64,000 nucleotides of DNA from Ensifer adhaerens. GTDB taxonomy: Bacteria; Pseudomonadota; Alphaproteobacteria; Rhizobiales; Rhizobiaceae. Shown piece after piece: positions 21,093 through 42,073 of the stretch. The stretch's first letter is position 1. Each line of letters opens with the position of its first letter. The stretch covers positions 515,763-579,762 of the forward strand of contig OCMG01000002.1 in the NCBI GenBank assembly GCA_900215285.1, written 5' to 3'. The position numbers and the translations under genes are program-made. Below the pieces are notes generated by a model. The model searched no databases. It was not told where the DNA came from and saw nothing but the letters and a program-made list of their open reading frames with translations.

Positions 21093-21115
21093 ATCTCACC
21101 TCGGGAAATTGGGCT

Positions 21116-21138: not shown

Positions 21139-21159
21139 TCATTTCCGCAGGAGGCCAGA

Positions 21160-22787: not shown

Positions 22788-22822
22788 TCCCGCATGGCGA
22801 GCAAGACGAGAAGGACAGATGC

Positions 22823-25008: not shown

Positions 25009-25041
25009 AGCGCCAGTAATCTAACTCTTGGTTTTCCGAGC

Positions 25042-26313
25042 TCAAAGCAGAGCAGCCGAGCGGGCCTCAATGACGACAGCGCGGAAGTCGTTGACATTGG
25101 TGAGCGTCGGTCCCGTCACCACCTGCCCTCCAATGGCATGAAAGAAGCTATGCGCATCGTTTGCCACAAGAGCGACCCGCGCATCAAGACCGACCGCTTC
25201 GGCAGTCTCCAGGGTGCGGGGCCCGATAATCGCGCCAGCAACCTCGGCTGCGCCATCGACACCATCAGTGTCGCAGGCAATCGCATAAATGCCATCGGCG
25301 CCTTGCAGGCCTATGGCAAGCGCCAGACAGAACTCGGCATTCGGGCCACCAACACCGTCGCCACGGCGCGTGACCGTCAATTCACCTCCGGAAAGCAACA
25401 GGACCGGCCGGCTGCCGGGCGATAGCACTCGTCGAATCTGAAGAGCGAGTTCTGCCTGCGCGCTTGCTTCCGTCCGCGCTTCGCCCTCAAGGGCATCGCC
25501 TAACAGACGCACATCATATCCTGCCTTTTCCGCCAGTTCCGCAGCGGCAGCAAGCGATTGCTTCGGCGCGGCATAGATCACGTTTTCGACGCGGGACAGG
25601 CGCGGATCGTCGGGGGACAGAACGCGATTGGGACCAGCAAGCGCGGCCCGAACGCTTGCCGGGACATCGATTTTCCATTGTTCGAGGATCGCCAGGGCAT
25701 CGGCGGGCGTCGAGGCATCCCCCACCGTCGGCCCGGACCCGATGAAAGCCGGGTCGTCGCCCGGCACATCGGAAATCAGTAGCGAGAGCATGCGCGCCGG
25801 ATAGGCCGCCGCCGCCAGCTGCCCGCCCTTCACGCGGCTCAGATGCTTGCGGACGGTGTTCATTTTGTCGATGGCTGCGCCCGAAGCCAGAAGGGCCGCG
25901 TTGACCGCCTGCTTCTCGGCAAGGCTCACGCCGTCGGCCGGCGCGACCAGAAGCGCGGAGGCGCCGCCGGAGATGAGCGCCAGAACGAAATCACTCTCGC
26001 CCGCCGTCTTCACAAGTTCGAGCATGCGGGCGGTGGCGGCAAGCCCGCTTTCGTCCGGCACCGGATGCGCCGCTTCGACGATCTCGATCCCCCGACATGG
26101 CCGGTTGTAACCGTAGCGCGTGATGACCAGCCCCTCGCACGGCCCCCAGGCCGCCTCGACCGCCTCGGCCATGCGGGCACTGGCCTTGCCGGCGCCGACG
26201 ACGATCACGCGGCCTTGCGGGCGCTCTGGCAGGAAGCGCGCGAGCGAGCGCATGGGGTCGGCCACCTCCACCGCCTTGTCAAAGAGCTGTCGCAGGAAGG
26301 CTTCCGTTGTCAT
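25042..26313 (-). CDS. Glycerate kinase of the MOFRL family (GckA/TtuD type)
   Basis: 423 residues with an N-terminal glycerate-kinase-like domain (VIVVGAGKASARMAEAVEAA near 35, LALISGGASALLVAPADG near 105, NTVRKHLSRVKGGQLAAAAY near 150) and a C-terminal MOFRL domain (LLLSGGELTVTRRGDGVGGP near 315). It phosphorylates D-glycerate, usually to 2-phosphoglycerate; TtuD was once called hydroxypyruvate reductase. It overlaps the LacI gene by 4 bp and ends the long minus-strand cluster, so glycerate or tartronate semialdehyde is a likely product of that pathway. Confidence 0.9.
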   Translation of the reverse strand: MTTEAFLRQLFDKAVEVADPMRSLARFLPERPQGRVIVVGAGKASARMAEAVEAAWGPCEGLVITRYGYNRPCRGIEIVEAAHPVPDESGLAATARMLELVKTAGESDFVLALISGGASALLVAPADGVSLAEKQAVNAALLASGAAIDKMNTVRKHLSRVKGGQLAAAAYPARMLSLLISDVPGDDPAFIGSGPTVGDASTPADALAILEQWKIDVPASVRAALAGPNRVLSPDDPRLSRVENVIYAAPKQSLAAAAELAEKAGYDVRLLGDALEGEARTEASAQAELALQIRRVLSPGSRPVLLLSGGELTVTRRGDGVGGPNAEFCLALAIGLQGADGIYAIACDTDGVDGAAEVAGAIIGPRTLETAEAVGLDARVALVANDAHSFFHAIGGQVVTGPTLTNVNDFRAVVIEARSAALL

Positions 26314-27323
26314 GTGCGCTTTCCGCCGCTGGAGTCGCGAACGATCAGTTCCACCGGCGTCCTGTGTTCGGTGATGGGGGGGTGGCTGTCTTCCAGCCAG
26401 TCGAGCACGGTTGCGGCGACGTCCTTCCCGAAGCCGGCAATGTCGCAGCGTACCGAGGTCAGCGGCGGATAGACCTGCGCGCATTCCTCGATATCGTCGA
26501 AGCCGACGATGCGGAAATCCTCGCCTACCTTCCGCCCGATCCGGGCGCAGCCGGAGAGCAGGCCCAGCGCCACAAGGTCGGAGAAACAGATGGCCGCATC
26601 GATGTCCGGATGGTCCCGCGTCAGGATGGCCGCCGCCTCGTGGCCGAAGGCGCGGCTGGCGCGACCGGAGAGCACGAAGGGTTCGATGCCGGCCTCGGCC
26701 ATCACCTCGAAATAACCGGACATGCGCTCCTGCGCCACCGCCCGGCCCTCAAGACCACCGACGAAGGCGACGCGCTTCGCGCCGCCCCGCACCAGATGTT
26801 CTGCCGCAAGACGGCTGCCTGAAAGATAATCGGGCGCCGAAAAGGGGAAAAGCTCGATGCGCGGATCGACCTTGCGCAACACCTGCATGGTCGGAATATT
26901 GGCACGCGCAATCGCTTCGAAGGTTGCGGCCTCCTCGCCATAGGCGGGCGAGATGATCAGCGCCGACACGCCGTGCTCGATGATCGCCGAAACCACCTGC
27001 GCCTGAATGGCAGGGTCCTCGTCCGTGTTGGCAAGCACGGTCGCATAGCCGCGCGCGGAAAGCGCCATCTGCAGCGAGGTGGCGAATTCGGTGAAGAACG
27101 GGTTGCGCAAGTCGTTGATGACGAGGCCGATCAGACCGACATTGGCCGAACGCAGATTGGCCGCCGAGCGATTGTAGACATAGCCGAGCTTGTCCATCGC
27201 CTCGCGGACCAGAACGCGCTTTTCCTCCCGCACCAGCGGGCTTTGCTGCAACACGAGGCTGACGGTCGATTTCGACACCCCCGCCTCGCGCGCTACGTCC
27301 ACAATGGTCGGTCTGCGCTCCAT
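26310..27323 (-). CDS. LacI-family transcriptional regulator
   Basis: 337 residues. LacI helix-turn-helix at 5-30 (TIVDVAREAGVSKSTVSLVL), hinge helix NRSAANLRS, then a periplasmic-binding-like effector domain (VGLIGLVINDLRNPFFTEFA, IVGFDDIEECAQVYPPLTSV). It lies between the DUF993 gene (9 bp) and glycerate kinase (4-bp overlap). It most likely responds to a carbohydrate brought in by the 33-37 kb importer. The paired LacI-type palindromes at 41929-41967 are the best candidate sites. Confidence 0.9.
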   Translation of the reverse strand: MERRPTIVDVAREAGVSKSTVSLVLQQSPLVREEKRVLVREAMDKLGYVYNRSAANLRSANVGLIGLVINDLRNPFFTEFATSLQMALSARGYATVLANTDEDPAIQAQVVSAIIEHGVSALIISPAYGEEAATFEAIARANIPTMQVLRKVDPRIELFPFSAPDYLSGSRLAAEHLVRGGAKRVAFVGGLEGRAVAQERMSGYFEVMAEAGIEPFVLSGRASRAFGHEAAAILTRDHPDIDAAICFSDLVALGLLSGCARIGRKVGEDFRIVGFDDIEECAQVYPPLTSVRCDIAGFGKDVAATVLDWLEDSHPPITEHRTPVELIVRDSSGGKRT

Positions 27324-27332
27324 GTGGCGAAC

Positions 27333-28496
27333 CTATTCGATTCCGTGGAGCGCAAGCAAGGTTCGCATCCTGTGGACGGCGAGATCTGGCATCGCGAGCA
27401 GCCCCGCCTGATCCGCCAGCCGGAAAACCACCGCATAGTGCGTGATGTCGCGGCTCGACTGGAAACCGGCCGGCATGATGAAATGCGTCTGGAATCCGTT
27501 GAGCCAGGCGAGAAACGCGATGCCTGCCTTGTAGAAGCGCGTCGGCGCGCGGAAGATTTCGCGGCTGAGCGGAACGGTCGGTGCAAATAGCCGGTGATAG
27601 GTCTCACTGTCGCCCTCAGCGAGTGCTTCGAGAGCTTGGCTCGCTGCCGGCGCAATCGCCGCGAAAATGCCGAGCAGCGCATGCGAATAATGCTGCCCGT
27701 CGCCTTCGATCAACGCCGCATAGTTGAAGTCGTCGCCCGTATAGAGCCGCACGCCAGCCGGCAGGCGCGCGCGGAAAGCCTCTTCATGCGCCTGATCGAG
27801 CAGCGAAATCTTGATGCCGTCGACCTTGGCAGGATTTTCCGCAATCAGATCCAGCACGAAATCGCTCGCGTCCGCGACATCGCTCGTGCCCCAATAGCCT
27901 GCAAGCGCCGGATCGAACATGTCGCCGAGCCAATGCAGGATGACGGGCTGAGCCGCGCCATCGATCAGTCGGCGATAGACCTTGCGATAGATGTCGCGGC
28001 CCGCGCCAATGGCGGTGAAGGCGCGCGAGGCCATGAGGATCAGCTGCCCGCCCGCCGCCTCAATAGCGGAGGCCTGCGTTTCGTAAGCCTTGAGGATCGC
28101 ATCGGCATCCCGGAGATCGGCAAGCGCGACGTGATCCGTGCCCGCCCCGCAGGCGACGCGCGGCTTTTGGCTATGGGCTTTCGCAGCGACCATCGTCCGT
28201 TCGATCAGTTCCTTCGCCGTGAGCCAGTCCACGCCCATGCCACGCTGGGCCGTGTCCATCGCTTCGGCGAGGCCGAGACCCTGGTCCCAGAGCCCTTGCC
28301 GAAAGGCGAGCGTCGCGTCCCAATCGACCGCCGGGCGCGTGTCCCAGGGGCTGTGCTCGCGCAAGGGATCGGAAACGACATGGGCGGCGGCAAAGGCGGT
28401 GCGGGTGAACGGCACGCGCGGCGCGCGGGGCACAAGCGGCGTTCCGGTGAGCGAATAGGCTTCGAGCGTGTGATCGGCCTTCGGCAGTTTCAGCAT
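27333..28496 (-). CDS. DUF993 / dihydrodipicolinate-synthase-like protein
   Basis: 387 residues, probably a TIM-barrel class I aldolase or lyase relative. Recognisable parts are DTAQRGMGVDWLTAKELIER near 82, ILHWLGDMFDPALAGYWGTS near 186, and VDGIKISLLDQAHEEAFRAR near 224, where the Lys of DGIKIS is placed like the Schiff-base lysine of the DHDPS family. The reaction is not known to me. In sugar clusters it might cleave a keto-acid or keto-sugar. It sits between the Dabb protein and LacI genes. Confidence 0.8.
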   Translation of the reverse strand: MLKLPKADHTLEAYSLTGTPLVPRAPRVPFTRTAFAAAHVVSDPLREHSPWDTRPAVDWDATLAFRQGLWDQGLGLAEAMDTAQRGMGVDWLTAKELIERTMVAAKAHSQKPRVACGAGTDHVALADLRDADAILKAYETQASAIEAAGGQLILMASRAFTAIGAGRDIYRKVYRRLIDGAAQPVILHWLGDMFDPALAGYWGTSDVADASDFVLDLIAENPAKVDGIKISLLDQAHEEAFRARLPAGVRLYTGDDFNYAALIEGDGQHYSHALLGIFAAIAPAASQALEALAEGDSETYHRLFAPTVPLSREIFRAPTRFYKAGIAFLAWLNGFQTHFIMPAGFQSSRDITHYAVVFRLADQAGLLAMPDLAVHRMRTLLALHGIE

Positions 28497-28505
28497 GGGT
28501 GCCTC

Positions 28506-28823
28506 CTATTCATGAACCGGCAGATCGAAGACAAGAATGCCGTCGAGCCCGCCCTCGGCATGGGCGACAAGCTTCGCGCCGAGCGCCTTGTGATCGGGGT
28601 GGGTCTGGTAGGCTTCCAGCGCGTCCCAGCCGTCGAAATCGACCACGAAGCCGTGCATGTAGCCGCGTTCGATCTTTTCGGGACTCTCGCTTCGGCCCGA
28701 AGTGATGGCCAGCACGCCGGAGATTTTCGAGCGGATGGCTTCCAGTTCTTCGAACATGACCGCGACCTGAGCCTCGGTGACGTCAGCGCGGAAGCGAATG
28801 AGAACGATATGGCGGATCATCAT
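28506..28823 (-). CDS. Dabb-family (stress-responsive A/B barrel) protein
   Basis: 105-residue ferredoxin-like alpha/beta barrel protein. The N-terminus MMIRHIVLIRFRADVTEAQV and the centre YMHGFVVDFDGWDALEAYQT are typical of the Dabb fold, which includes small cyclases and heme-independent decarboxylases as well as proteins of unknown role. AGAGGA lies before ATG 28823. It sits 9 bp from the DUF993 gene and 13 bp from the GMC gene, so it is part of the pathway, perhaps acting on an unstable oxidised sugar. Function unproven. Confidence 0.8.
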   Translation of the reverse strand: MMIRHIVLIRFRADVTEAQVAVMFEELEAIRSKISGVLAITSGRSESPEKIERGYMHGFVVDFDGWDALEAYQTHPDHKALGAKLVAHAEGGLDGILVFDLPVHE

Positions 28824-28836
28824 TTGAGCGTTCCTC

Positions 28837-30423
28837 TCAGAGGCCATGGGCGGCGCGGATCATGTCGGCGGCTTTTTCCGCGATCATGATCGTCGGCGCA
28901 TTCGTGTTGGACGAGACCAGCGTCGGCATGATCGAGGCATCGACGACGCGCAGGCGTTCGATTCCGTTGAAGCGCAATTGCGGATCGACGACGGCGGCGG
29001 GATCAGCCCCCATGCGGCATGTACCGGCGGGGTGGTGATCGGTCTTGGCGTGGCGGCAGGCGTAGTTGAAATAATCTTGTTCCGTCCGCACCTCCGGCCC
29101 CGGCAGGCGTTCCGCCTTCACATAGGGCTTCAGCGCATCCTGCCGCATGATCTCCTGCGCGAGCTTCAGGCCCTTGATCGACATCTCGCGGTCGTAAGGA
29201 TCGGCCCAGTAATTTGGGTCGATCAGCGGTGCGGCCAGCGGATCGGAGGAGGCAAGCCGCACGGTGCCGCGCGAGCGCGGGCGCAGATAGGCGGAATTCA
29301 GCGTCACGCCGCCATTTTCCATCGCAGTCACGCCGGCCTCGATGCCGGAACCGAGCCCGAGATGGAACTGGATATCCGGCGAACGGGCCTCCGGATCGGC
29401 ATACCAGAAGCCACCCGTCTCGAAGAGGCTGGAGGCCACCGGCCCCTTTTTCTGAAGGAGATATTGCAGGCCGGCAAGCACCGACAGATGCGGCTTGGCA
29501 TAGCGGTCATACGTGTGCGGGCCACTGCATTCGGCAATCACGAAGAGATCGACATGGTCCTGAAGGTTCGAGCCGACGCCCGGCTGGTCATGGACGACCG
29601 GCAGGCCAACGGAGCGCAGGTGATCCGCCGGGCCGATGCCGGAGAGCATCAGCAGGCGCGGACTGCCGATGGCGCCCGACGACATGATGATCTCGACATC
29701 GGCGCGAATGATCCCCTCACCCGACACCTCGACACCGACCGCCTTGCCGTTCTCGACGATGACACGCAGGATCTGCGCGCCGGTCTTGATCGTGAGGTTC
29801 GGCCGATGGCGGGCCGGGTTCAGATAGGCGACCGAGGCCGAGGACCGGCGCACATTGCGCTGCGTCAGCTGGTAATAGCCGACGCCGTCCTGCTTCTCGC
29901 CGGTCATATCCTCGTTGGTCGGAATGCCGAGCTGCCCGGCGGCCCTGAAATAGGCCTCGCAGATCGGCAGCGGAGCGGCCGGCTTGCTGACACCCAGCGG
30001 GCCGCCCTTGCCGTGATAGCGGTTATCATAGGTGTCGTTGTCTTCCGCCTTGCGGAAATAGGGCAGCACGTCCTCATAAGACCAGCCCTCGCAGCCCATC
30101 TGCCGCCAGTCGTCATAGTCGAGCGCATTGCCGCGCGTGTAGATCTGCGCATTGATGGTCGAGCCGCCGCCCAGAACCTTGGCCTGGGTGTAGCGGATCA
30201 CCATGTTGTTCATGTGCTTCTGCGGCACGCTGTGCCAGCCCCAGCTGCCGATGCCCTTGGTCATTTTCGCAAAGCCCGCCGGCATATGGTAGAACGGATG
30301 CCAATCACGCCCGCCTGCCTCCAGCAACAGCACGCGCGCCTTGGGGTTTTCCGAAAGCCGGGCCGCCAGCACCGAGCCGGCCGACCCGCCGCCGCAGATG
30401 ATGAAATCGTAAGACGTCTGCAT
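28837..30423 (-). CDS. GMC-family FAD oxidoreductase, choline-dehydrogenase-like
   Basis: 528 residues. FAD fold YDFIICGGGSAGSVLAARLS at 5-24, GMC signatures VLGGGSTINAQIYTRGNALD near 84 and SSGAIGSPRLLMLSGIGPAD near 257, and C-terminal active-site HHPAGTCRMGADPAAVVDPQ with NTNAPTIMIAEKAADMI. No signal peptide, so cytoplasmic or peripheral. It oxidises an alcohol of unknown identity. ATG 30423 is preferred to 30465 since the FAD motif begins at once. A palindromic repeat lies immediately upstream. Confidence 0.9.
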   Translation of the reverse strand: MQTSYDFIICGGGSAGSVLAARLSENPKARVLLLEAGGRDWHPFYHMPAGFAKMTKGIGSWGWHSVPQKHMNNMVIRYTQAKVLGGGSTINAQIYTRGNALDYDDWRQMGCEGWSYEDVLPYFRKAEDNDTYDNRYHGKGGPLGVSKPAAPLPICEAYFRAAGQLGIPTNEDMTGEKQDGVGYYQLTQRNVRRSSASVAYLNPARHRPNLTIKTGAQILRVIVENGKAVGVEVSGEGIIRADVEIIMSSGAIGSPRLLMLSGIGPADHLRSVGLPVVHDQPGVGSNLQDHVDLFVIAECSGPHTYDRYAKPHLSVLAGLQYLLQKKGPVASSLFETGGFWYADPEARSPDIQFHLGLGSGIEAGVTAMENGGVTLNSAYLRPRSRGTVRLASSDPLAAPLIDPNYWADPYDREMSIKGLKLAQEIMRQDALKPYVKAERLPGPEVRTEQDYFNYACRHAKTDHHPAGTCRMGADPAAVVDPQLRFNGIERLRVVDASIMPTLVSSNTNAPTIMIAEKAADMIRAAHGL

Positions 30424-30440
30424 TTTCTGAACCTCTACAA

Positions 30441-30477
30441 GCAATTCCAGCGAAACCGGTTTCACGTCCGGAATTGC
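30441..30477. repeat. Nested palindromic intergenic repeat (RIME-like)
   Basis: GCAATTCC (30441-30448) pairs with GGAATTGC (30470-30477), and inside lies the perfect 12-bp palindrome GAAACCGGTTTC (30452-30463). The form matches short palindromic elements common between rhizobial genes. It fills most of the 62-bp gap between the SDR and GMC genes. Only one copy was seen in this window. Confidence 0.55.
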
Positions 30478-30485
30478 GCAAAAAT

Positions 30486-31244
30486 CTAAAGCCTCTGCAG
30501 CGAGAGACCGCCGTCGACCGGGATCACCGCGCCACTGGAAAAGGCCATCTGCCCAGTGGCGAGCGGCACCACGGCCGCGCCGATATCGCCCGGCTGCCCC
30601 CAGCGCGCCGCCGGGACCAGCCCGCCCTCAATCCGCGCGGTGTATTTGTCCTTCACACCCGCCGTCATGCCGGTCTCGATGATGCCGGGGCGAAGTTCGA
30701 AGACGCCGATGCCGTGCGGTGCCATGCGCACCGCAAACAGTTGCGCCATCATCGAAGCCGCCGATTTCGACAGGCAATATTCTGCCCGCTCGATGGAAAT
30801 CATCTCGGCGCTGACGGAGGTCACGAAGAGCATGGAGCGGTAGTGGTCGCTGACGTTGGCCAGCATGTGCCGCGCCGCCGCTTGCGCCAGGAAGAAGGCC
30901 CCGCGCAGGTTGATGTCGAAGACGAAATCGAAGCTCTCCGGCACCATGTCCAGCATGTCGCCCCGCACCTTCGCCGGCACGCCGGCATTGGAGACGAAGG
31001 TATCGATCGGCCCCATGGCACGAACGACATCGGCAATGCAGGCTTCGGCATGCGTAACGTCGCGCAGGTCATGCTGGAAATAGCGCGCGTCGGCGCCGAG
31101 TGCAGCGAGCGCCTCGCCGACGAGATCGTTTTCCGACGCGACTTCGGCCACCAGCGCCACCCGGAAACCGGCCGCGACAAGCGCCTCAGCGATGCCGAAA
31201 CCGATGCCCTGCTGGCCGCCGGTGATGAGAGCAAGCGGGCTCAT
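30486..31244 (-). CDS. SDR-family oxidoreductase, 3-ketoacyl-ACP-reductase-like
   Basis: 252-residue classical short-chain dehydrogenase. Cofactor motif TGGQQGIGFGIAEAL at 8-22, VSNAGVPAKV near 87, catalytic Ser in VTSVSAEMIS and the YxxxK pair in YCLSKSA near 153, C-terminal GAVIPVDGGLSLQRL. Cofactor NAD or NADP cannot be told. Its start overlaps the next GMC gene's stop by 4 bp. A second oxidation or reduction step of the cluster's sugar-like substrate is likely. Confidence 0.9.
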   Translation of the reverse strand: MSPLALITGGQQGIGFGIAEALVAAGFRVALVAEVASENDLVGEALAALGADARYFQHDLRDVTHAEACIADVVRAMGPIDTFVSNAGVPAKVRGDMLDMVPESFDFVFDINLRGAFFLAQAAARHMLANVSDHYRSMLFVTSVSAEMISIERAEYCLSKSAASMMAQLFAVRMAPHGIGVFELRPGIIETGMTAGVKDKYTARIEGGLVPAARWGQPGDIGAAVVPLATGQMAFSSGAVIPVDGGLSLQRL

Positions 31245-33849: not shown

Positions 33850-33854
33850 GGTTC

Positions 33855-34733
33855 TTATCCTTTGACAGAGCCCGCCATCAGGCCGCGCACGAAATAGCGT
33901 CCGGCGACGATGTAGACGAAGAGAGTGGGAAGGGCGGCGATGATCGCGCCCGCGAAATGGACGTTATATTCCTTCACGCCCGTGGAGGACTGGACGAGAT
34001 TGTTGAGCGCCGCCGTCATCGGCTGGCTGGTGCCGCCGAAGGAAACACCGAACAGGAAGTCGTTCCAGATATTGGTGAACTGCCAGATGACGGAGACGAC
34101 AGTGATCGGCCCGGAAATCGGGAGCAGAATGCGCCAGAAGATGCGGAAGAACCCCGCGCCATCGATCTGCGCCGCCCGCACCAGTTCGGTCGGGAACGTG
34201 GCGTAGTAGTTGCGATAGTAGAGCGTCGTGAAGCCGATGCCGTAGACGACATGGACAAGCACGAGGCCCGGCACAGTGCCGGCGAGCCCGAGCTTGCCGA
34301 GAACCATCGCCATGGGGATGAGCACGATCTGGAACGGGATGAAGCAGGAAAACAGCATCAGTCCGAAGACGATCGTGTCAAAGCGGAAGCGCCACTTGGT
34401 CAGCACATAGCCGTTGAGCGCACCAATGACGGTCGAGATCGCCACGGCCGGCACGACCATGAGGATCGAGTTGAGGAAGTAAGGCTCAAGACCCGTCGGC
34501 GAGACACCGATCTGGGCGGTGGACCAGGCGGATTTCCAGGCCTCCAGCGTCCAGGTCTGCGGCAGCGCCATCATGTTGCCGCCGGTGACTTCCGCGAGCG
34601 GCTTCAGCGAGTTCACCACCATGACGTAAAGCGGCAGCAGGTAGAACAACGCGAAAAGCAGAAGCAGGAGATAGATGAAGGTGCGGGTGATCCGGCCGGT
34701 ATTGACGGCGGTATCCTGGCTGACGGCGGACAT
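33855..34733 (-). CDS. Carbohydrate ABC transporter permease, MalG type
   Basis: 292-residue permease, six helices (first FIYLLLLLFALFYLLPLYVM at 19-38). The EAA loop is LVRAAQIDGAGFFRIFWRIL. Overlaps its MalF-type partner by one base and lies 5 bp before the ATPase gene. Closest in form to glucose/mannose GtsC-type permeases. Confidence 0.9.
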   Translation of the reverse strand: MSAVSQDTAVNTGRITRTFIYLLLLLFALFYLLPLYVMVVNSLKPLAEVTGGNMMALPQTWTLEAWKSAWSTAQIGVSPTGLEPYFLNSILMVVPAVAISTVIGALNGYVLTKWRFRFDTIVFGLMLFSCFIPFQIVLIPMAMVLGKLGLAGTVPGLVLVHVVYGIGFTTLYYRNYYATFPTELVRAAQIDGAGFFRIFWRILLPISGPITVVSVIWQFTNIWNDFLFGVSFGGTSQPMTAALNNLVQSSTGVKEYNVHFAGAIIAALPTLFVYIVAGRYFVRGLMAGSVKG

Positions 34734-35626
34734 TATTGCTTCTCCTTCAGCTCGGCATAGAGATAGGGAACCATGATGGCGGCAATCGTCATCAGCATGA
34801 TCACGGCGGACGCTGCCCCGATGCCCATCTGGTTGCGGGTGAATGTGTAGGAATACATGAAGGTCGCCGGCATTTCGGTCGCCCGCCCGGGACCGCCGCC
34901 CGTCAGGGCGATGACGAGGTCGTAGGACTTGATGGCGAGGTGGCTCAGAATGACGAAGGATGAGAGGAAGGCCGGGCGCAGCATGGGAATGACGATGCGG
35001 CGGTAAAGCTGGAAGCTCGATGCGCCGTCGATCTGCGCCGCCTTCAGGATCTCGTTGTCGATGCCGCGAAGACCCGCGAGGAACATGGCCATGACGAAGC
35101 CGCTGGTCTGCCAGACGGCGGCGATCACGATCGTGTAGATCGCCATCTCGCTATCCTTGATCCAGGTGAAGGAAAAGCTCTCCCAGCCCCAGAGATGCAT
35201 GACATGTTCGAGCCCTATGCCCGGATCGAGGAACCATTTCCACGCCGTGCCCGTCACGATGAAGGAGAGCGCCATCGGGTAGAGATAGATGGGGCGCAAC
35301 ACGCCCTCGCCGCGGATCTTCTGATCGAGGAAGATCGCGAGCATCAGGCCGAGCACGGTGCAGATGACGATGTAGAGGCTGGCGAAGATGCCGATATTGA
35401 CGATGGCGATGTGCCAGTTTTCCAGCGCCCAGAGCTTGCGGTAATTCTCCCAGCCGACGAGCGTGTAGTTCGGCAGCATCTTGGAGCCGGTGAACGACAG
35501 GAAGACGGTGAAGATAATGAAGCCGTAGACGAAAAGCAGCGTCACGGCGAAGGACGGCGCCAGCACGATCTTGGGCAGCCAGTCCTGTATGCGCGTGCGA
35601 AGATCGGCCTCTGCTGAGCTGGCCAT
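34733..35626 (-). CDS. Carbohydrate ABC transporter permease, MalF type
   Basis: 297-residue permease with six helices (first LAPSFAVTLLFVYGFIIFTV). EAA loop ILKAAQIDGASSFQLYRRIV near 195. Separated from the binding-protein gene by 109 bp with a GC hairpin. Confidence 0.9.
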   Translation of the reverse strand: MASSAEADLRTRIQDWLPKIVLAPSFAVTLLFVYGFIIFTVFLSFTGSKMLPNYTLVGWENYRKLWALENWHIAIVNIGIFASLYIVICTVLGLMLAIFLDQKIRGEGVLRPIYLYPMALSFIVTGTAWKWFLDPGIGLEHVMHLWGWESFSFTWIKDSEMAIYTIVIAAVWQTSGFVMAMFLAGLRGIDNEILKAAQIDGASSFQLYRRIVIPMLRPAFLSSFVILSHLAIKSYDLVIALTGGGPGRATEMPATFMYSYTFTRNQMGIGAASAVIMLMTIAAIMVPYLYAELKEKQ

Positions 35627-35696
35627 GTCGGGTCTCCCATGGAATGTCGTTTTGCCGGCTGGAACCGGAATTCTCCGCGCGAAGCGGGCGGAGATG

Positions 35697-35719
35697 GAGG
35701 GCGGCGGAGCGCCGCCCTC
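35697..35719 (-). repeat. Intercistronic hairpin after the binding-protein gene
   Basis: GAGGGCGGC, 5-nt loop, GCCGCCCTC: a perfect 9-bp GC stem 16 bp after the binding-protein stop. No T-run follows, so it probably protects the upstream mRNA from 3' decay and lets the binding protein be made in excess. Confidence 0.55.
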
Positions 35720-35735
35720 TTCTCACGTTACAGGC

Positions 35736-36989
35736 TTACTTGGCCGCAGCAACCGCATCGGCCAGAGCCTTGGCAGCTTCGGCACCGGTCTTGAAGCCAC
35801 CGTTGAATGCCTTGGTGACGACGTCATAGACCGCGTTCTTGACCGCAGCGGGCGCCGCATGGCCATGAGCCATGGAGCCTAGCAGCGTGCCGTTCTTGTT
35901 GGCTTCGGCCAGATCCTTGATGCCCTTCTTGCCGCAATCGTCAAACGCCGTATCCGGAACATCGGTGCGGGCAGGAACCGAACCCTTGACCACGTTGAAG
36001 GCCGACTGGAATTTCGGGCTTTCGATGGAGGATGCCATTTCCATCTGCGCCTTGATCTTGTCGTCGCCCTTCACGTTGAACATCGCGAACTGGTCGGAGT
36101 TGAAGGTGACGGCCCCTTGAGTGCCGGGGAAGCGGATGCAGACGAAATCCTTGTCCGGCTTCTGACCGGCTTTCAGGAACTCGCCCTTGGCCCAGTCGCC
36201 CATGATCTGCATGCCTGCCTTGCCGTTGATGACCATGGCAGAGGCGAGGTTCCAGTCGCGGCCGGAGAAGTTGTCGTCCACATAGGTGCGCAGCTTCATG
36301 AGGCGCGTGAAGGCATCCGCCATCTTGTCGCCGCCGAGCGTTGCCGGATCGAGATCGATAAAGGCCTTCTTGTAGAAATCCGTGCCTTCGGACAGCACGA
36401 CGCCGTCGAAAATCGTGGCTTCCTGCCAGGGCTGGCCGCCATGCGCCAGCGGCGTGATGCCGTCAGCCTTCATCTTGTCGAGAACGGCAATCAGCTGATC
36501 CCAATTTTCCGGAGCCTTCATGCCGGTCTTGTCGAGAGCGGCCTTGCTGATCCAGATCCAGTTGGTCGAGTGCACATTGACCGGAGCGGCAATCCAGTGG
36601 CCGTCATACTTCGAGAACTTCTGCAGCGCGGCCGGAATGACCTTGTCCCAGCCTTCCTTGGAGGCAACGCCGTCGAGATTGCCGAGTGCGCCCTGCTGGG
36701 CCCAGTCGAGAATGTCGAAGCCGAGCATCTGCACGGCGGTCGGCGGGTTGCCGGCCGTGACGCGGGCGCGCAGAGCGGTCATCGCCGCTTCGCCGCCGCC
36801 GCCGGCAACCGGCATGTCGACCCAGCCGATGCCCTTGGCCTTGAGGTCTTCCTTCAGAACGTTGAGCGCTGCGGCCTCGCCGCCGGACGTCCACCAGTGC
36901 AGGACTTCGACATCGGTTGCGTGGGAAAGCGTGGTGGTGGCTGCGAGCACGGCCGCGGTGGCCAGTGCCGTCTTGATGAAGCTACGCAT
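35736..36989 (-). CDS. Carbohydrate ABC transporter substrate-binding protein, glucose/mannose-binding type
   Basis: 417 residues. Signal peptide 1-24 ([20 protein letters not shown], cleavage after SHA). The mature start [20 protein letters not shown] and the blocks [20 protein letters not shown] and LVHGGQPW-like [17 protein letters not shown] are those of GtsA-type glucose/mannose binders. Strong AAGGAGGAG ribosome site before ATG 36989. An aldose, glucoside or cyclitol is the likely ligand; exact identity is open. Confidence 0.9.
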
Positions 36990-37042
36990 GTACTCCTCCT
37001 TATAGTGCGTTTGCGTGACTTTTTATGCGTCCTGAAAGCCTG

Positions 37043-38572
37043 TCAGCTCCTCACCCAGTTCGGCCGTGTCCGGCCGACCCGCATGACGACGGTTTTGACT
37101 TCCAGGAATTCGTCGAGGCCGTAGGGGCCGATTTCGCGGCCCTGGCCGCTTTGCTTGAACCCGCCGAAGGTGAGCTCGGGGAAGCCGTCCATCCAGGTAT
37201 TGGTCCAGACGGTTCCAGCCTGCACGCGGCGGGAAAATTCAAGGCAGGTGTGGACGTTCTCGCTCCAGACGCCGGCCGAGAGACCGTAAGAGGCGTCATT
37301 GACGAGGTCGATCGCCTCTTCGAGCGTACGGAAGGTCAGCACCGAGAGAACCGGACCGAAGACTTCCTCGCGGGCAATCGGCATGTCGGCCGTTACGCCG
37401 GTGACGACGGTCGGCTGGTAGAAGCGGCCGGGCAATTCGGCAATCGGCAGCGCCGTGCCGCCGAGCTCGACCTTAGCGCCAGCTGCGACGGCGGCGCGCA
37501 CATAGCCGTCGATCTTCTCCTGATGGGCCGACGAGATGATCGCGCCGACCTGCGTGTCGGGATTGAGCGGATCGCCGAAGGCGACCTTCTTCGACAGCGC
37601 CACGACGCGGGCAACGAAAGCTTCTGCAATGTCTTCATGCACGATGATGCGGCTGCCGGAATTGCAGCATTCGCCGGCGTTGAAATAGACGCCGAAGGTG
37701 ACGGCATCGGCGGCGGAGTCGAGGTCGGCATCCGGGAAAATCACCTGCGGGTTCTTGCCGCCCAGCTCCAGCGCCACCTTCTTCAGAGTGCCCGACGCTG
37801 CCGCCATGATCGCCTTGCCGACCGCCGTCGAGCCGGTGAAGGTCACCATGTCTACGTCTGCATGTTCAGACATGACCTGACCGACCGGCTGGCCGAAGCC
37901 GAGGACGATATTGACGACGCCGGCAGGCAGGCCCGCCTCTGTGAGGAGATCGGCCAGCATCACGGTCGTCGAGGGCGTCATTTCGGACGGCTTGACGACG
38001 CAGGTGCAGCCGGCGGCAAGCGCGAAGGGCAGCTTCTGGCTGAGAATCCAGAAGGGGAAGTTCCAGGGCGTAATGATCGAGACGACGCCGATCGGCTCCT
38101 TCAGCACGACGCCGAGCATCTGCTCACCCAGCGAATTGTGGCTGTCGCCATGAAGCGTCCGGGCAAGCGACGCGGCATAGCGCCAGAGATCGGCAGCGCC
38201 AGAGACTTCGCCGCGCGCCTGCGTGATCGGCTTGCCGCTTTCCAGCGTTTCGAGGATCGCCATGCGCTCGGCATTGGCCTCGATCAGATCGGCGACCTTG
38301 AGCAGCACGGTCGCCCGCTCCTTGCCGGAAACGCGGCTCCAGATGCCGGCATCGAAGGCCTTGCGCGCGGCGGCGATGGCGCGTTCCGCATCCTCGCGCC
38401 CGCCCTTGGCCGAGCGGCTGACGACAACGCCATGTGAGGGCGAGACGCGCTCGAACATCGCACCGTCCGCACTGTCACACGATTCGCCGTCGATGAAATG
38501 ACGGCCCTCGAACGGGCTTGCAGGAAGCGCGATGCTGGCGGTGGTGATGATGGTCAGGTCATTCATGGTCAT
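37043..38572 (-). CDS. Aldehyde dehydrogenase family protein
   Basis: 509 residues, NAD(P)-dependent aldehyde to acid oxidation. Cofactor-binding WNFPFWILSQKLPFALAAGC near 170 and GSTAVGKAIMAAASG, general-base Glu in ALELGGKNPQ near 270, nucleophile Cys in NAGECCNSGSRI near 305, and C-terminal FGGFKQSGQGREIGPYGLDE. Start 38572 gives an ATGA overlap with the crotonase gene; ATG 38566 is equally possible. It ends 53 bp before the binding-protein gene, within the same long transcription unit. Confidence 0.92.
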   Translation of the reverse strand: MTMNDLTIITTASIALPASPFEGRHFIDGESCDSADGAMFERVSPSHGVVVSRSAKGGREDAERAIAAARKAFDAGIWSRVSGKERATVLLKVADLIEANAERMAILETLESGKPITQARGEVSGAADLWRYAASLARTLHGDSHNSLGEQMLGVVLKEPIGVVSIITPWNFPFWILSQKLPFALAAGCTCVVKPSEMTPSTTVMLADLLTEAGLPAGVVNIVLGFGQPVGQVMSEHADVDMVTFTGSTAVGKAIMAAASGTLKKVALELGGKNPQVIFPDADLDSAADAVTFGVYFNAGECCNSGSRIIVHEDIAEAFVARVVALSKKVAFGDPLNPDTQVGAIISSAHQEKIDGYVRAAVAAGAKVELGGTALPIAELPGRFYQPTVVTGVTADMPIAREEVFGPVLSVLTFRTLEEAIDLVNDASYGLSAGVWSENVHTCLEFSRRVQAGTVWTNTWMDGFPELTFGGFKQSGQGREIGPYGLDEFLEVKTVVMRVGRTRPNWVRS

Positions 38573-39336
38573 TGTCCGGAAAATGTGGGTTTGCGCTTTT
38601 CCCTGAAGGCGGCAACGCCTTCATTGCGGTCGTCGCTGGCGGAAATGGCGGCGCTGCCCAGCGCCTCGATCATCGCGCCGGCGTCTTCGTCCTTCGCCGC
38701 ATGGATCATCGATTTGGCGATCTCGACGGCGCGGGGCGACAGCTCGGTGACACGCGCGGCCATCGCTTCGGCGAGCCCTCGCACATCCTCCCCCACCTCG
38801 GCCGCGAAACCGAATTGCAGCGCCCGCTCGGCGCTGATACGGCGGCCGAAGAGCGCCATTTCCTTCAGCACCGGCTCGGGCAGCAGCCGCGCGAGGCGCT
38901 GCGTGCCCGACCAGCCCGGCACGATACCGACGGCGGCCTCGGGCAGCGCAATCGTCGCGCGGGGCGTCATCACGCGGATGTCACAGGCGGCCGCCAGCTC
39001 CAGCCCGCCGCCGAAGGCGTGGCCGTTGAGAACCGCAATCGTCGGCTTGGCAAGCCGCGCAAGCCGGTCGAAAATGCGGTGGCCGCCCCGCACCCAGTGG
39101 CGGGCGAATTCCGCCGGCGTCAGGTCGCCCCAGCCATTGATATCCGCGCCCGAGCAGAAGGCCTTCTCGCCCTCGGCAGTGACGAGAACGCAGGCGATCT
39201 GCGTGTCGCGCTCGATGACGTCCAGATGGGCGGCCAGCCGCGCCAGCATGTCGACCGTGAAAGCATTGAGCTTCGCCGGATTATCGAGCCGGATTTCCGC
39301 AATGCGGCCGCGAATGTCGAGATGAACGTCGCTCAT
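38569..39336 (-). CDS. Enoyl-CoA hydratase/isomerase (crotonase) family protein
   Basis: 255 residues. Oxyanion-hole segments FCSGADINGW near 61 and HAFGGGLELAAACDIRV near 102, and the acid-base Glu in LPEAAVGIVPGWSGTQRLAR near 125. It may hydrate, isomerise or cleave (retro-Claisen) a CoA ester. Its 4-bp overlaps with the CoA-transferase and ALDH genes imply coupled synthesis. A crotonase in a sugar-import operon is unusual. Confidence 0.9.
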   Translation of the reverse strand: MSDVHLDIRGRIAEIRLDNPAKLNAFTVDMLARLAAHLDVIERDTQIACVLVTAEGEKAFCSGADINGWGDLTPAEFARHWVRGGHRIFDRLARLAKPTIAVLNGHAFGGGLELAAACDIRVMTPRATIALPEAAVGIVPGWSGTQRLARLLPEPVLKEMALFGRRISAERALQFGFAAEVGEDVRGLAEAMAARVTELSPRAVEIAKSMIHAAKDEDAGAMIEALGSAAISASDDRNEGVAAFREKRKPTFSGQ

Positions 39337-40904
39337 GGCGTCCACCCCATCGGCTGATCACCAAAGAGGCTCGCCGGCATGGTCGTGGCGTTTTCGGCGA
39401 CTCGGACGCGGCCCTGCGATGCGCCGACGATATCGGCCTGCGGATCGATGCCCGGCATGATCTCGGTCGCGACCAGGCCGCCGTCGCCGAGGCGCATGAC
39501 GCAGCGCTCGGTGATGTAGAGCACGTCCTGCCCCTGCGACCGCGCGCGATTGCCGGAGAAGGTGACATGCTCGACCCGCTCGACCATCTTGGTGAACTTG
39601 CCGGGTTTGGCGACGCGGATGCCGCTGTCGCTCAATGCGATGTCCGCGCCGGCCTCGAACCAGCCGGAGAAGACGATCTTCTTCGCATGCGCCGTGATAT
39701 CCACGAAGCCGCCGCAACCGGCCGTGAGATACGGCTTCTTGCCGAGCTTGGAGACGTTCACATTGCCCTCAACATCGACCTCGAGGAAGGAGAGGAAGGA
39801 GACGTCGAAGCCGGCACCCTGAAAATATATGAACTGCTGCGGCGAGGGCACATAGGCATCCGCATTGGAAGCGCAGCCGAAGGCGAAATCGGTGAGCGGC
39901 ATGCCGCCGACCGCGCCCTGTTCGATGGCCCAGGTGACGGCATCCGGATGGCCTTCTTCAAGCAGGATGCGCGGCACCTGCGCGCTGATGCCGAAGCCGA
40001 GATTGGCCGTCATGCCGCCCTTGAGTTCCATCGCCGCGCGGCGCGCAATGACCTTTTCGACGCCGTGCTCGGCGAGCTTAAAGCTCGACCACGGCCGCAT
40101 GATCTGCCCGGAAATCGCCGGATCATAAGGCGTTTCGCAGGTCTGTTTCTGATGTGGATCGACAACGACGAGATCGACGAGATGGCCGGGCACGCGGACA
40201 TCGTGTGGCCGCAGGCTCCCGGCCGCCGTGGTGCGGCTGACCTGCGCAATCACGAGGCCGCCATGGTTGCGAACCGTGATCGCCTGCTCCAGCCCGCCGA
40301 GATAGGCACCCTCGTGCTCATAGGTGAGATTGCCGCGCTCGTCCGCGGTGGTGGCGCGCAGGATGCAGACATTGGGCACGATATTCGGGAAATGCAGCCA
40401 GGTCTCGCCGCCGAACTCGACGCGCGACACGATCGGCTGAGCCGCGCCCTTTGCATTCATCGCACAGCCTTCGCGGACCGGATCAACGAAGGTTTCGAGA
40501 CCGACGCGCGTCAGCACCCCGGGACGGCGCGCGGCGGCTTCGCGATGCATGTCGAACATCACGCCCGAGGGCACGTTGTAGGCGGCAACCCGATCCTCGA
40601 CGATCATCTTCCAGATTTCCGGCATCGGCAGGTTCGACGGCCCGGAGGGATAGGAGCCGGCGAGAACGCGCGTCAGCAGCCCATCCTTGGCAATGTGGTC
40701 CATGCCCTTGACGCCATACATGTCGCCGGCGGCAATGGGATGCAGCGTGGTGAGACCGCGCGGATGGCCTTGCGCCTCGAAGCGCTCGCCCAGCGCCTTC
40801 AGCACCAGATCGGGACAGCCGAGTGCGGAGGAGGAGGAGACGGTGACCACCGCGCCATCGGGAATGCGCGCAACGGCTTCTGCCGCGCTGACGACCTTGC
40901 TCAC
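39333..40904 (-). CDS. Fused two-domain CoA-transferase (propionate/acetoacetate CoA-transferase type)
   Basis: 523 residues holding both halves of class I CoA-transferases. The N-terminal half (1-275) has MTVSSSS-like VVTVSSSSALGCPDLVLKAL and GGLEQAITVRNHGGLVIAQV. The C-terminal half (300-523) has GFGISAQVPRILLEEGHPD and WAIEQGAVGGMPLTDFAF, where the Glu of EQGAVGG is the likely thioester-forming residue. It would activate a carboxylic acid to its CoA ester for the adjacent crotonase. Overlaps both neighbours by 4 bp. Confidence 0.9.
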   Translation of the reverse strand: MSKVVSAAEAVARIPDGAVVTVSSSSALGCPDLVLKALGERFEAQGHPRGLTTLHPIAAGDMYGVKGMDHIAKDGLLTRVLAGSYPSGPSNLPMPEIWKMIVEDRVAAYNVPSGVMFDMHREAAARRPGVLTRVGLETFVDPVREGCAMNAKGAAQPIVSRVEFGGETWLHFPNIVPNVCILRATTADERGNLTYEHEGAYLGGLEQAITVRNHGGLVIAQVSRTTAAGSLRPHDVRVPGHLVDLVVVDPHQKQTCETPYDPAISGQIMRPWSSFKLAEHGVEKVIARRAAMELKGGMTANLGFGISAQVPRILLEEGHPDAVTWAIEQGAVGGMPLTDFAFGCASNADAYVPSPQQFIYFQGAGFDVSFLSFLEVDVEGNVNVSKLGKKPYLTAGCGGFVDITAHAKKIVFSGWFEAGADIALSDSGIRVAKPGKFTKMVERVEHVTFSGNRARSQGQDVLYITERCVMRLGDGGLVATEIMPGIDPQADIVGASQGRVRVAENATTMPASLFGDQPMGWTP

Positions 40905-41905
40905 TTCATGCCTCCATAATTGATTGTCACGCGGGCGCCGGTCTCGGCGGCCTCGCGCACCGCAACCGCCACGGCGAGCGACTTGACGCCATCGATGCCG
41001 GTTGCGGCAGGCTGGCCCTCGCCCCGCACAGCGGCCTCGAATTCGGCGACGCCGGTGATGTAGAGATCGTGCCCATCGAAGGGGATCGCGTGGCGGCCCG
41101 CCGCATCGACCAGTTCGATCTCGCCGACCGGCTTCTGGGTCATCACGCCACGCGCGAAGATGGAGCCCTGCGTGCCGTGAACCTCAAGCCCGCTGCCGGC
41201 GAAAGGATGGGTGAAGCTTTCGTGGCTCATGACCATCGCGCCGGAGGGCATGGCCCAGACCGACATGGCGGAATCCTCGACCCCCTGCCCCATGCCGGAA
41301 CTCGTTGCCTGCGCGACGACCGAGACCGGGTCTTCGTCCAGCAGGAAACGGACAACATCGGCGTCGTGGACGGTGATATCCGGAATAACGCCCCCACCTT
41401 CCGCCGCCGAATTGATGCGCCACCCTTGCAGGTTCTCCGGCAGATGCACGGCATGGAAGACCCGCACCGACAGGACCTTGCCGACGCGGCCCTCGCGGAT
41501 CAGCGCGCGGACCGCGCGATGGCTGCGGGAGCAGCGCAGGTGATGGTTCGTCGCAAAGGTGACGCCCGCCTCCTCGGCGGCGCGCACCATGGCGGCGGCA
41601 TCGGGAACCGTCATCGCCAGCGGCTTTTCGCAAAGCACATGCTTGCCGGCTGCAATGGCGGCCAGCGCCTGCAGGAGATGCTTTTCATTCGTCGTGGAAA
41701 TATAGACGGCATCGATAGCCGGATCGGCCAATGCCTCGTTCAGGTCGGTGCCGCAGGCGGGAATGTCGTGCTCGCGGGCGTAAGCGTCCGCACGGTCGCG
41801 GGAGCCGCTGACGACACGTGCAACCTCACCGCCCGCTTGAGCGCGGATCGCCCGGATCATGTGCTGCGACGCGATCGTACTCGCGCCCACCAGGGCCCAT
41901 CGCAT
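40901..41905 (-). CDS. Gfo/Idh/MocA-family oxidoreductase, first gene of the cluster
   Basis: 334 residues. Rossmann start MRWALVGASTIASQHMIRAI, the family motif EKPLAMTV near 93, HHLRCSRSHRAVRALIREGR near 121, and GGGVIPDITVHDADVVRFLL near 170. These enzymes oxidise or reduce a sugar or cyclitol carbon with NAD(P). The start follows GGGAGGAAAGC and lies just below the tandem operators at 41929-41967, so it is the promoter-proximal gene of the 17-kb run. Confidence 0.9.
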   Translation of the reverse strand: MRWALVGASTIASQHMIRAIRAQAGGEVARVVSGSRDRADAYAREHDIPACGTDLNEALADPAIDAVYISTTNEKHLLQALAAIAAGKHVLCEKPLAMTVPDAAAMVRAAEEAGVTFATNHHLRCSRSHRAVRALIREGRVGKVLSVRVFHAVHLPENLQGWRINSAAEGGGVIPDITVHDADVVRFLLDEDPVSVVAQATSSGMGQGVEDSAMSVWAMPSGAMVMSHESFTHPFAGSGLEVHGTQGSIFARGVMTQKPVGEIELVDAAGRHAIPFDGHDLYITGVAEFEAAVRGEGQPAATGIDGVKSLAVAVAVREAAETGARVTINYGGMK

Positions 41906-41928
41906 GCTTTCCTCCCGAAATGCTTCTT

Positions 41929-41967
41929 ATTTGGATCGTTCCAATATCGATATGGAACGATCCAAAT
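41929..41967 (-). promoter_or_regulatory. Tandem LacI-type operators forming a perfect 15-bp inverted repeat
   Basis: ATTTGGATCGTTCCA and its exact reverse complement TGGAACGATCCAAAT flank a 9-bp spacer. Each arm is itself close to a LacI palindrome with central CG (TTGGATCGTTCCAA, 12 of 14 paired). The two CG centres are 21 bp apart, two helical turns, so two dimers or a tetramer could bind one face. It covers the region just downstream of a perfect -35 box for the Gfo/Idh gene. Confidence 0.75.
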
Positions 41968-41975
41968 TTTGTCAA
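41947..41975 (-). promoter_or_regulatory. Sigma-70-like promoter of the 25-42 kb cluster
   Basis: On the minus strand TTGACA (41970-41975) is followed after 17 bp by TATCGA, a weak -10. One operator lies between -35 and -10 and the other across the start region, the layout of tight repression. The -10 assignment is uncertain. Confidence 0.5.
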
Positions 41976-42073
41976 GAGTGAATTTTCGAAAGGTCCTTCC
42001 ATCTGGCATCTGGCTCAATACCGACAAGAATCATCTCGCGCGACGAAAGCCTTAGAAGCCTGAAGCCTTTCCT

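Follow-up and report, generated by a model that had tools for sequence, protein, structure and literature searches.

A rhizobial operon that may degrade 1,5-anhydrohexitols by way of a coenzyme A thioester

Described systems and the layout of the locus

1,5-Anhydro sugars are unusually stable ring sugars that are found in starch breakdown, in plants and in human blood, and the ring of a 1,5-anhydrohexitol cannot open because its C1 has no hydroxyl. Here, we analyse an operon of 15 co-directional genes in a 64,000-nucleotide stretch of Ensifer adhaerens DNA (contig OCMG01000002.1; the window), which lies on the minus strand from 41905 down to 25042. Based on homology and gene context, we tentatively read it as an aerobic catabolic route for 1,5-anhydrohexitols (1,5-anhydroglucitol, 1,5-anhydrofructose and 1,5-anhydromannitol) via a coenzyme A (CoA) thioester.

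The 1,5-anhydro-D-fructose reductase (AFR) pathway of Sinorhizobium morelense resembles the locus in its AFR-family enzyme and in its host family, Rhizobiaceae. However, the published route leads to mannose via a hydroxylase, whereas the window has a CoA-transferase and a crotonase and no oxygenase domain. An AFR search by Kuhn et al. in 2006 reportedly gave the S. meliloti gene SMc04400. In the Escherichia coli carnitine system (CaiB/CaiD/CaiA-Fix), a CoA-transferase and a crotonase act on a hydroxy acid as its CoA ester, and the CoA is recycled. The window has the same two enzyme types, to which its type B relatives (see below) add an acyl-CoA dehydrogenase and in some cases electron transfer flavoprotein (ETF) genes; in contrast to the carnitine system, its substrate would be sugar-like, and its transferase belongs to family I (YdiF-like) rather than family III. 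Unsaturated uronate catabolism uses GH88 or GH105 enzymes and runs through 2-keto-3-deoxygluconate (KDG) to an Entner–Doudoroff end. The shared points here are a 4,5-unsaturated uronic ether hydrated to KDG and a GH88 homologue in the Micrococcaceae operons, whereas the unsaturation is proposed to arise by CoA-activated dehydration instead of a polysaccharide lyase, and the C1 hemiacetal is absent. The diketo-hydrolase pathways for L-rhamnose and L-fucose employ a short-chain dehydrogenase/reductase (SDR), after which an enzyme of the fumarylacetoacetate hydrolase (FAH) family cuts a 2,4-diketo-3-deoxy acid, releasing pyruvate and a hydroxy acid. The same order, SDR and then C–C cleavage, is what we propose for the lower half of the route in the window, with DUF993 in place of the FAH-family hydrolase.

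According to a 2025 review (PMC12441222), Rhizobiaceae reduce anhydrofructose to anhydromannitol, the next aerobic enzyme is unidentified, an analogous oxidative pathway for 1,5-anhydroglucitol is undescribed, and the anaerobic route uses a glycyl radical. This anaerobic pathway (YbiW/PflD), as presented there, shares the substrate class with the operon; it acts on 6-phosphates, however, and the operon contains no glycyl-radical domain.

The genes of the operon, all of which lie on the minus strand, are as follows, in the order of transcription.

40901..41905, minus: Gfo/Idh/MocA protein of the AFR family; best Protein Data Bank (PDB) matches 2glx and 4koa; K94, D176, H180
39333..40904, minus: fused family I CoA-transferase, YdiF-like; PF01144; 2ahu at E 4e-93; EQGAVGG glutamate
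38569..39345, minus: crotonase of the enoyl-CoA hydratase type; PF00378; best PDB match 5zai; E116, E136
37043..38572, minus: aldehyde dehydrogenase (ALDH); PF00171
35736..36989, minus: CUT1 solute-binding protein (SBP); 4r2b at E 7e-204, then 5dvf, 5xpj, 8hqq and 2b3b
34733..35626, minus: ABC permease; PF00528
33855..34733, minus: ABC permease; PF00528
32737..33849, minus: UgpC/MalK-type ATPase; over the cut-off of NF008653
31241..32740, minus: GMC1 flavoprotein; best PDB matches FAD glucose dehydrogenase and fructose dehydrogenase, then pyranose oxidase
30486..31244, minus: SDR of the PRK12745 group; over the cut-off of NF009386; 4da9
28837..30423, minus: GMC2 flavoprotein, choline dehydrogenase-like; PF00732 and PF05199
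28506..28847, minus: Dabb protein; PF07876; weak PDB relatives
27333..28496, minus: DUF993 protein of the dihydrodipicolinate synthase (DHDPS) superfamily, with Schiff-base lysine K229; PF06187 at 575 bits; 4dnh; hhalign 96.5%
26310..27323, minus: LacI-family repressor; PF00356/PF13377
25042..26313, minus: MOFRL-type glycerate kinase; PF13660 and PF05161

The start of GMC2 was placed at the first in-frame ATG; its open reading frame (ORF) opens with GTG at 30465. The ALDH was over the cut-off for none of 25 listed NCBIfam models. Every gene named in the initial annotation is present, and the 17-kb co-directional cluster that it described is found as stated, although its genes are not mostly overlapping by 4 bp: exact 4-bp overlaps occur at 5 of 14 junctions and any overlap at 8, with the largest gaps being 109, 62 and 53 bp. 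It is plausible that the 15 genes form one transcription unit. Among their Pfam domains, no glycoside hydrolase, ThuA, DUF1080, thiolase, GH88, glycyl-radical, oxygenase or P450 domain was found.

An AFR-family gene linked to CoA chemistry

The first protein of the operon matched two AFR structures in the PDB, 2glx (E 1e-106) and 4koa (E 2e-104), whereas the next best match had an E value of 6e-27, and inositol dehydrogenase models scored far below cut-off. Residues K94, D176 and H180, which we take to be the catalytic residues of AFR by its own labels (Lys94, Asp176, His180), are invariant in eight of eight aligned homologues (alignment A1), and the protein is 54% identical to that of the S. 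meliloti locus. With AFR clearly the closest match, the protein is, by its sequence, a member of the AFR family, which acts at C2. This key point was overlooked in the initial annotation, where a glycoside, cyclitol or deoxy sugar, possibly oxidised at C3, had been suggested; the AFR match argues against that substrate, as does the lack of glycoside hydrolase, ThuA and DUF1080 domains.

A survey of 297 genomes of the window's family showed AFR in 74 (77 hits, E ≤ 1e-60), the CoA-transferase in 97 (106 hits, E ≤ 1e-120) and DUF993 in 112. In 72 of the 77 cases, the AFR hit lies directly upstream of a CoA-transferase hit on the same strand, and by match coordinates the distance is within 70 bp in 69 of these 72. 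The union of a sugar-class importer with CoA chemistry, which had been noted from the window, is borne out by the gene content and also holds in relatives: among the 106 CoA-transferase loci, some of them cut by contig ends, 66 of the 72 AFR-type loci carry the SBP. Additional AFR homologues (loci L155–L158, in genome G200 and on contig C27 of genome G073) stand by CUT1 importer, GMC1, ALDH or GMC2 genes and have no labelled CoA-transferase; they perhaps belong to another anhydrosugar route.

The CoA-transferase aligns with YdiF (2ahu), and the glutamate of EQGAVGG, presumably the YdiF active-site residue in the second half of a family I CoA-transferase, is kept in all eight aligned sequences. 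The crotonase aligns with its nearest structure, the 3-hydroxypropionyl-CoA dehydratase 5zai, and its E116 and E136, whose counterparts we take to be the catalytic glutamates of the rat hydratase, are invariant in eight of eight sequences across phyla. Thus, the crotonase looks like a dehydratase, and it is proposed to remove the C4 hydroxyl of a uronyl-CoA. The alternative of a retro-aldol lyase acting on an anhydro-uronyl-CoA was rejected by reasoning only, since the ether would remain.

In the route that we propose, the CUT1 importer would bring in a glucose-like sugar. GMC1, as a putative C2 oxidase or dehydrogenase, would convert 1,5-anhydroglucitol to anhydrofructose, AFR would reduce the latter with NADPH to anhydromannitol, and the putative C6 alcohol oxidation by GMC2, together with ALDH, would take C6 to the uronic acid. 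The CoA-transferase would then form the uronyl-CoA, in which the C5 hydrogen becomes acidic, and the crotonase would eliminate the C4 hydroxyl to give a 4,5-unsaturated enol ether; the CoA would pass to the next acid, probably being recycled by the transferase. The enol ether may be opened by either of two exchangeable modules. For the Arthrobacter relatives (Micrococcaceae), we propose hydration to D-KDG by a GH88 homologue; most of their loci also have a KDG-kinase-like gene close by. In the window, the module would consist of the SDR, DUF993 and glycerate kinase: oxidation at the allylic C3 hydroxyl by the SDR would yield a vinylogous ester, DUF993 (through a Schiff base, perhaps with Dabb) would hydrolyse this ester via a 2,4-diketo-3-deoxy acid to pyruvate and D-glycerate, and glycerate kinase would phosphorylate the D-glycerate.

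Fischer projections predict that 1,5-anhydro-D-mannitol leads to a D-erythro acid (D-KDG) and the gluco isomer to an L-threo acid, and that C1–C3 end as D-glycerate only from the manno compound; the need for AFR would thus be explained, because only the manno configuration at C2 yields D-KDG or D-glycerate. In addition, the predicted crotonase product, a 4,5-unsaturated uronic ether, is the substrate type of GH88, and the actinobacterial operons do carry GH88. The data show the identities of the genes, their catalytic residues, their linkage, the exchange of modules and the operator sites; we infer the substrate and every reaction from homology and gene context, and the roles given to DUF993 and Dabb are the weakest among them. 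The substrate class is probably 1,5-anhydrohexitol, whereas the CoA-driven ring opening is better regarded as possible, and the role proposed for DUF993 as rather doubtful.

Cluster types, exchangeable modules and LacI control

All 106 CoA-transferase loci, including the window (L049), and 12 plasmid loci were fetched, some of which end at contig or fetch limits; the presence of the CoA-transferase in the 106 is by construction, since the loci were drawn by its hits. ORFs were labelled by BLAST to proteins of the window and of type B or C clusters, labels below stated identity limits were dropped, and antisense ORFs hide some genes in the gene strings, so that absences are weaker than presences. 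The 118 loci include one duplicate (L045 = L140), and the 117 distinct ones comprise 80 AFR-type, nine A3, 21 type B, two A? and five other loci, these last seven fitting none of the types. Recurrence of the same gene set in other species argues that the grouping is not due to chance.

GMC1 is present and acyl-CoA dehydrogenase absent in 86 loci. Of these, 71 hold SDR plus DUF993 but neither the GFO_D nor the FAD protein gene, another 10 hold one or both of GFO_D and the FAD protein but lack SDR and DUF993, the two sets never occur together, and five show other combinations (67, 9, 0 and 3 of 79 within the 106-locus set); these counts ignore kinship, by which related genomes inflate them, as they do the operator counts below. 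L048 is the one AFR-bearing locus of the ten; AFR is also joined with the FAD protein in L063, which lies at a contig end and lacks GMC1. In the version from Rhizobium CCGE531 (L048/L159), there are in addition a class I fructose-bisphosphate aldolase and a PfkB kinase whose best-scoring family is KDG kinase (250 bits, cut-off 400), and the A3 locus L160 has that kinase as well. In extended stretches of the nine A3 genomes, the FAD protein occurs in all nine and the glycerate kinase label in none.

The type B clusters, found on S. meliloti pSymA and elsewhere, contain the CoA-transferase, crotonase, GMC2, ALDH, SDR and DUF993 together with an acyl-CoA dehydrogenase, aldo/keto reductases and an AP_endonuc_2-type isomerase, with ETF genes in 5 of 22 rows. 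Two of them (L041, 9063–23602, and L045, 8841–26278) combine acyl-CoA dehydrogenase and ETF genes in a Cai/Fix-like layout, have a CUT2 importer instead of CUT1, and lack the LacI operator core. In Roseibium porphyridii (L033 and L047), which was isolated from the red alga Porphyridium, the operon stands on a 49-kb plasmid, where nitrate assimilation genes adjoin it; glucan lyase can occur in red algae.

Outside the family, a scan of named genomes gave a lower bound, the true spread being larger than counted. Among the matches listed, Zongyanglinia, Roseibacterium and an uncultured Rhodobacteraceae (L174, L175, L192) show the gene order of the window as far as the stretches go, a Rhodothermales metagenome-assembled genome (L183) has AFR, CoA-transferase, crotonase, GMC2, ALDH, SBP, permeases and GMC1 with divergent ETF genes, and Arthrobacter sp. 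Y81 (L186) shares the core of AFR, CoA-transferase, crotonase, ALDH and GMC. A gammaproteobacterial metagenome-assembled genome has AFR, importer, GMC1 and GMC2 on one contig and CoA-transferase, SDR and DUF993 on another.

In the family of Arthrobacter (245 genomes, including that of L186), the CoA-transferase was found in five at E ≤ 1e-140. Four of these five Micrococcaceae loci contain AFR, CoA-transferase, crotonase, ALDH, GMC1, a GH88 protein and a GMC protein that carries a fused Gluconate_2-dh3 domain; none of the four has an SDR or DUF993 label, and three have a kinase that scores best, though under cut-off, with KDG/KDGal kinase models. The GH88 protein aligns with the unsaturated glucuronyl hydrolase 1vd5 (E 4e-43), and both members of the aligned Asp pair, which we take to be the catalytic residues of that enzyme, are kept in all four; the first Asp is replaced by N in chain 2ahf. 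The fifth locus (L254) has an SDR-type gene, DUF993, an isomerase, CoA-transferase and crotonase, and the start of a neighbouring ORF resembles, by eye only, a GlxK-type glycerate kinase. The GMC fusion inside the Arthrobacter operon (L186, 12687–14951) is 755 aa long.

DUF993 is described in Pfam (PF06187) as a family of unknown function. It aligned with DHDPS-family profiles at an hhalign probability of 96.5% (E 7e-10, 243 columns) when the DHDPS set was enlarged by 30, compared with 3.7% in an earlier run with just three DHDPS sequences. K229 falls on the Schiff-base lysine of the DHDPS alignment and reaches an identity of 98% or more across 125 sequences, some of them redundant, and MDTAQRG and HWLGDMFDP stand at about the aligned places of the GTTGE carboxylate motif and the YN tyrosine. 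With these motifs replaced, DUF993 belongs to the superfamily but probably acts on another substrate, and a plain KDG aldolase was rejected on this ground; an aldol cleavage by DUF993 combined with ALDH is possible. The suggestion in the initial annotation that DUF993 and Dabb open the sugar to a keto acid remains tenable given the superfamily and the lysine. Of the products proposed with it, glycerate is plausible, whereas an acyl-CoA is unlikely: a split into acyl-CoA is disfavoured by the absence of a thiolase domain and by the hydratase/dehydratase glutamate pair that the crotonase keeps. DUF993 also occurs in clusters without CoA genes (type C; L037, L038, L039), which have a Gfo/Idh gene, an isomerase/epimerase-type gene, tripartite tricarboxylate transporter (TTT) or ABC importers, and TetR. 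In L037 and L038, DUF993 stands behind the Gfo/Idh gene and an enolase-superfamily gene, a layout that fits a 2-keto-3-deoxy acid and a dehydrogenase ahead of DUF993; L039 has no enolase-like gene.

Upstream of the AFR gene, a promoter-like element and two operator near-palindromes with a central CG were found, the latter 21 bp apart and just downstream of TTGACA.

41970..41975, minus: −35-like hexamer TTGACA ahead of the operators; consensus match only
41952..41965, minus: LacI-type operator TTGGATCGTTCCAT; palindrome scan and genome core search
41931..41944, minus: LacI-type operator TTGGAACGATCCAA; palindrome scan and genome core search

Four operator matches were found in the window, counting both strands of the two sites, against 0.19 expected from shuffles, and the 5.19 Mb genome has no copy of the core TGGAWCGWTCCA outside these two sites. 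A strict inverted-repeat search of the promoter region gave nothing, and the looser palindrome scan picked up the operator. A consensus promoter scan of 24900–42300 did not report the proposed operon promoter, whose second hexamer is poor; the two promoter-like sites that it gave lie on the plus strand and do not exceed the number from shuffles. The operon has one LacI gene, whose product is predicted to bind the twin operator, and the earlier description of the cluster as LacI-governed is thereby strengthened.

Counted at any position of the stretches fetched, the core is present in 72 of 80 AFR-type loci, in nine of nine A3 loci and in none of the 21 distinct type B loci. As controls, it occurred once in 1.11 Mb (66 loci of distant Gfo/Idh homologues), and the core reversed but not complemented gave 0. 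The next downstream gene of 122 operator sites (types A, A3 and A?) is LacI for 53, AFR for 27, DUF993 (all labels) for 23, CoA-transferase for nine and GMC2 for four, with none for six. Since the core lies before divergent DUF993 genes, DUF993 would belong to the regulon there too. The operon is thus real, widespread among plant-associated bacteria and others, and tightly linked, with a conserved operator.

In S. meliloti (L036), the gene order is homologous as far as fetched, the Gfo/Idh gene is annotated as 1,5-anhydro-D-fructose reductase, and leuB lies about 4.5 kb beyond DUF993. The record that holds leuB and the cluster (CP090106.1, 3.7 Mb, labelled pSymB) looks chromosomal. PMC12542648 gives leuB as SMc04405, which would place L036 at about SMc04390–04401; SMc04132/33 and SMc04390–92 are stated there to be lowered in a phaR mutant. 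SMc04401 is listed as a regulator with a mean regulon size of 4.04 in PMC4560400.

Beyond the operon, nagA is the convergent plus-strand neighbour, ending at 25008, and a TonB-type gene lies upstream. On the plus strand at 21109–25008, nagA and a SIS-domain NagB-II-like gene, together with two ORFs that look GntR-like and BadF-kinase-like by eye, resemble a separate amino sugar operon, convergent with the CoA operon and ending 33 bp away.

Competing readings and implications

Several observations weigh against an anhydrohexitol route. AFR lacks an adjacent CoA-transferase in five of its 77 hits and, in Janthinobacterium (L185), has none nearby; no CoA-transferase was found in that genome at E ≤ 1e-60 with the Arthrobacter protein as query. 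SDR and DUF993 are missing from the 10 loci with GFO_D and/or the FAD protein, nine of which also lack AFR, and in extended AFR loci the glycerate kinase occurs in 10 of 19, compared with 19 of 19 for the SDR. The operator core lies within 300 bp upstream of AFR itself in only 13 of 80 AFR loci, because the LacI gene comes first in most. Crotonases normally hydrate at the beta carbon, no protein of the window is an evident candidate for opening the enol ether (a GH88 domain was not found among the 15 genes), and the GTTGE motif and YN tyrosine of DHDPS are not found in DUF993. KDG kinase is the best-scoring family for the kinases of L186 and L159, though their scores (153 and 250 bits) fall below the curated cut-offs (440 and 400). 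After 4r2b, presumably a glucose-bound structure, the SBP matches the sugar-binding proteins 5dvf, 5xpj and 8hqq and the glucose-binding protein 2b3b. Furthermore, PMC4960864 reports dextrin induction of SMc04396, a putative sugar transporter gene of S. meliloti that probably encodes the SBP in the homologous operon there. Another glucose-like ligand of the SBP is therefore possible. Fungal and red algal glucan lyases convert starch to anhydrofructose, as mentioned in PMC12441222, and a link from this anhydrofructose to the dextrin induction is speculative.

An ordinary hexose or its keto acid could instead be degraded by a retro-Claisen route, in which GMC1 and ALDH would make a 3-keto aldonate, the CoA-transferase would convert it to a 3-ketoacyl-CoA, and the crotonase would cleave this to a short hydroxyacyl-CoA and an acid ending as glycerate. 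Family I CoA-transferases act on 3-keto acids; the SBP is close to glucose- and sugar-binding proteins, and the SDR and glycerate kinase would suit an acyl-CoA/glycerate split. However, this route leaves AFR without a role although 72 of its 77 hits are linked with the CoA-transferase, the crotonase is dehydratase-like, and GH88 in the Micrococcaceae operons is left unexplained, making it unlikely.

There is a slim chance for a reading along the lines of the initial annotation: C3 oxidation of a glycoside or disaccharide, with GMC1 as a glycoside 3-dehydrogenase, followed by elimination or ring opening and a CoA-ester split. GMC1 does fall in a broad sugar-GMC group with an Arthrobacter relative fused to a Gluconate_2-dh3 domain, and the A3 variant has a GFO_D protein resembling levoglucosan dehydrogenase, below the cut-off of that model. 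The 15 genes, however, contain no Pfam domain of a 3-ketoglycoside hydrolase or lyase, and the Gfo/Idh protein is AFR-like; a 3-ketoglycoside pathway was rejected on these grounds.

The Rhizobiaceae route described for S. morelense by Kuhn et al. (2006), as relayed in PMC12441222, also stands against an anhydrohexitol route through CoA: anhydromannitol made by AFR would be hydroxylated at C1 to mannose, and the CoA genes would merely share the operon and serve another compound. No oxygenase or P450 domain was found in the 15 genes, to which the search was confined; PMC12441222 calls the hydroxylase still unidentified, and AFR and the CoA-transferase keep together across phyla, so this reading is likewise improbable.

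Catabolism of an inositol- or quercitol-like compound (a cyclitol or deoxy-cyclitol), in which DUF993 and Dabb would cleave the ring, is very improbable. In its favour, Gfo/Idh and SDR enzymes often oxidise cyclitols, and type C clusters carry a sugar phosphate isomerase/epimerase-type gene. It was rejected on model scores, as inositol dehydrogenase models are far below cut-off against strong AFR structure matches; in addition, the SBP is of the glucose class, and GMC2 and ALDH would have no primary alcohol as substrate. A deoxyribonate-type BKACE route was likewise rejected, with no such Pfam domain in the 15 genes.

In the open-licence papers searched, we found none naming DUF993, none on a sugar-acyl-CoA, no relevant one on 4R2B, 4KOA, 4DNH or PF06187, and nothing further on the operon; PMC3454389, PMC13259140 and PMC12108524 gave no decisive information. 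A wider proposal, that in several phyla a catalytic CoA-thioester cycle serves to open the inert ring of anhydro sugars, with GH88 plus kinase or DUF993 as lower modules, is rather doubtful at present. If the anhydrohexitol reading is true, the operon would be the aerobic route so far missing for 1,5-anhydroglucitol and 1,5-anhydrofructose, and it offers named, testable genes for the aerobic gap after anhydromannitol. According to PMC12441222, a probiotic for the neutropenia that 1,5-anhydroglucitol causes is unlikely to succeed unless an enzyme that works aerobically is identified. CoA-thioester chemistry would also be added to sugar catabolism, and DUF993 would gain a predicted enzyme class, that of a Schiff-base ring hydrolase or C–C cleaving enzyme, and a position in a pathway.

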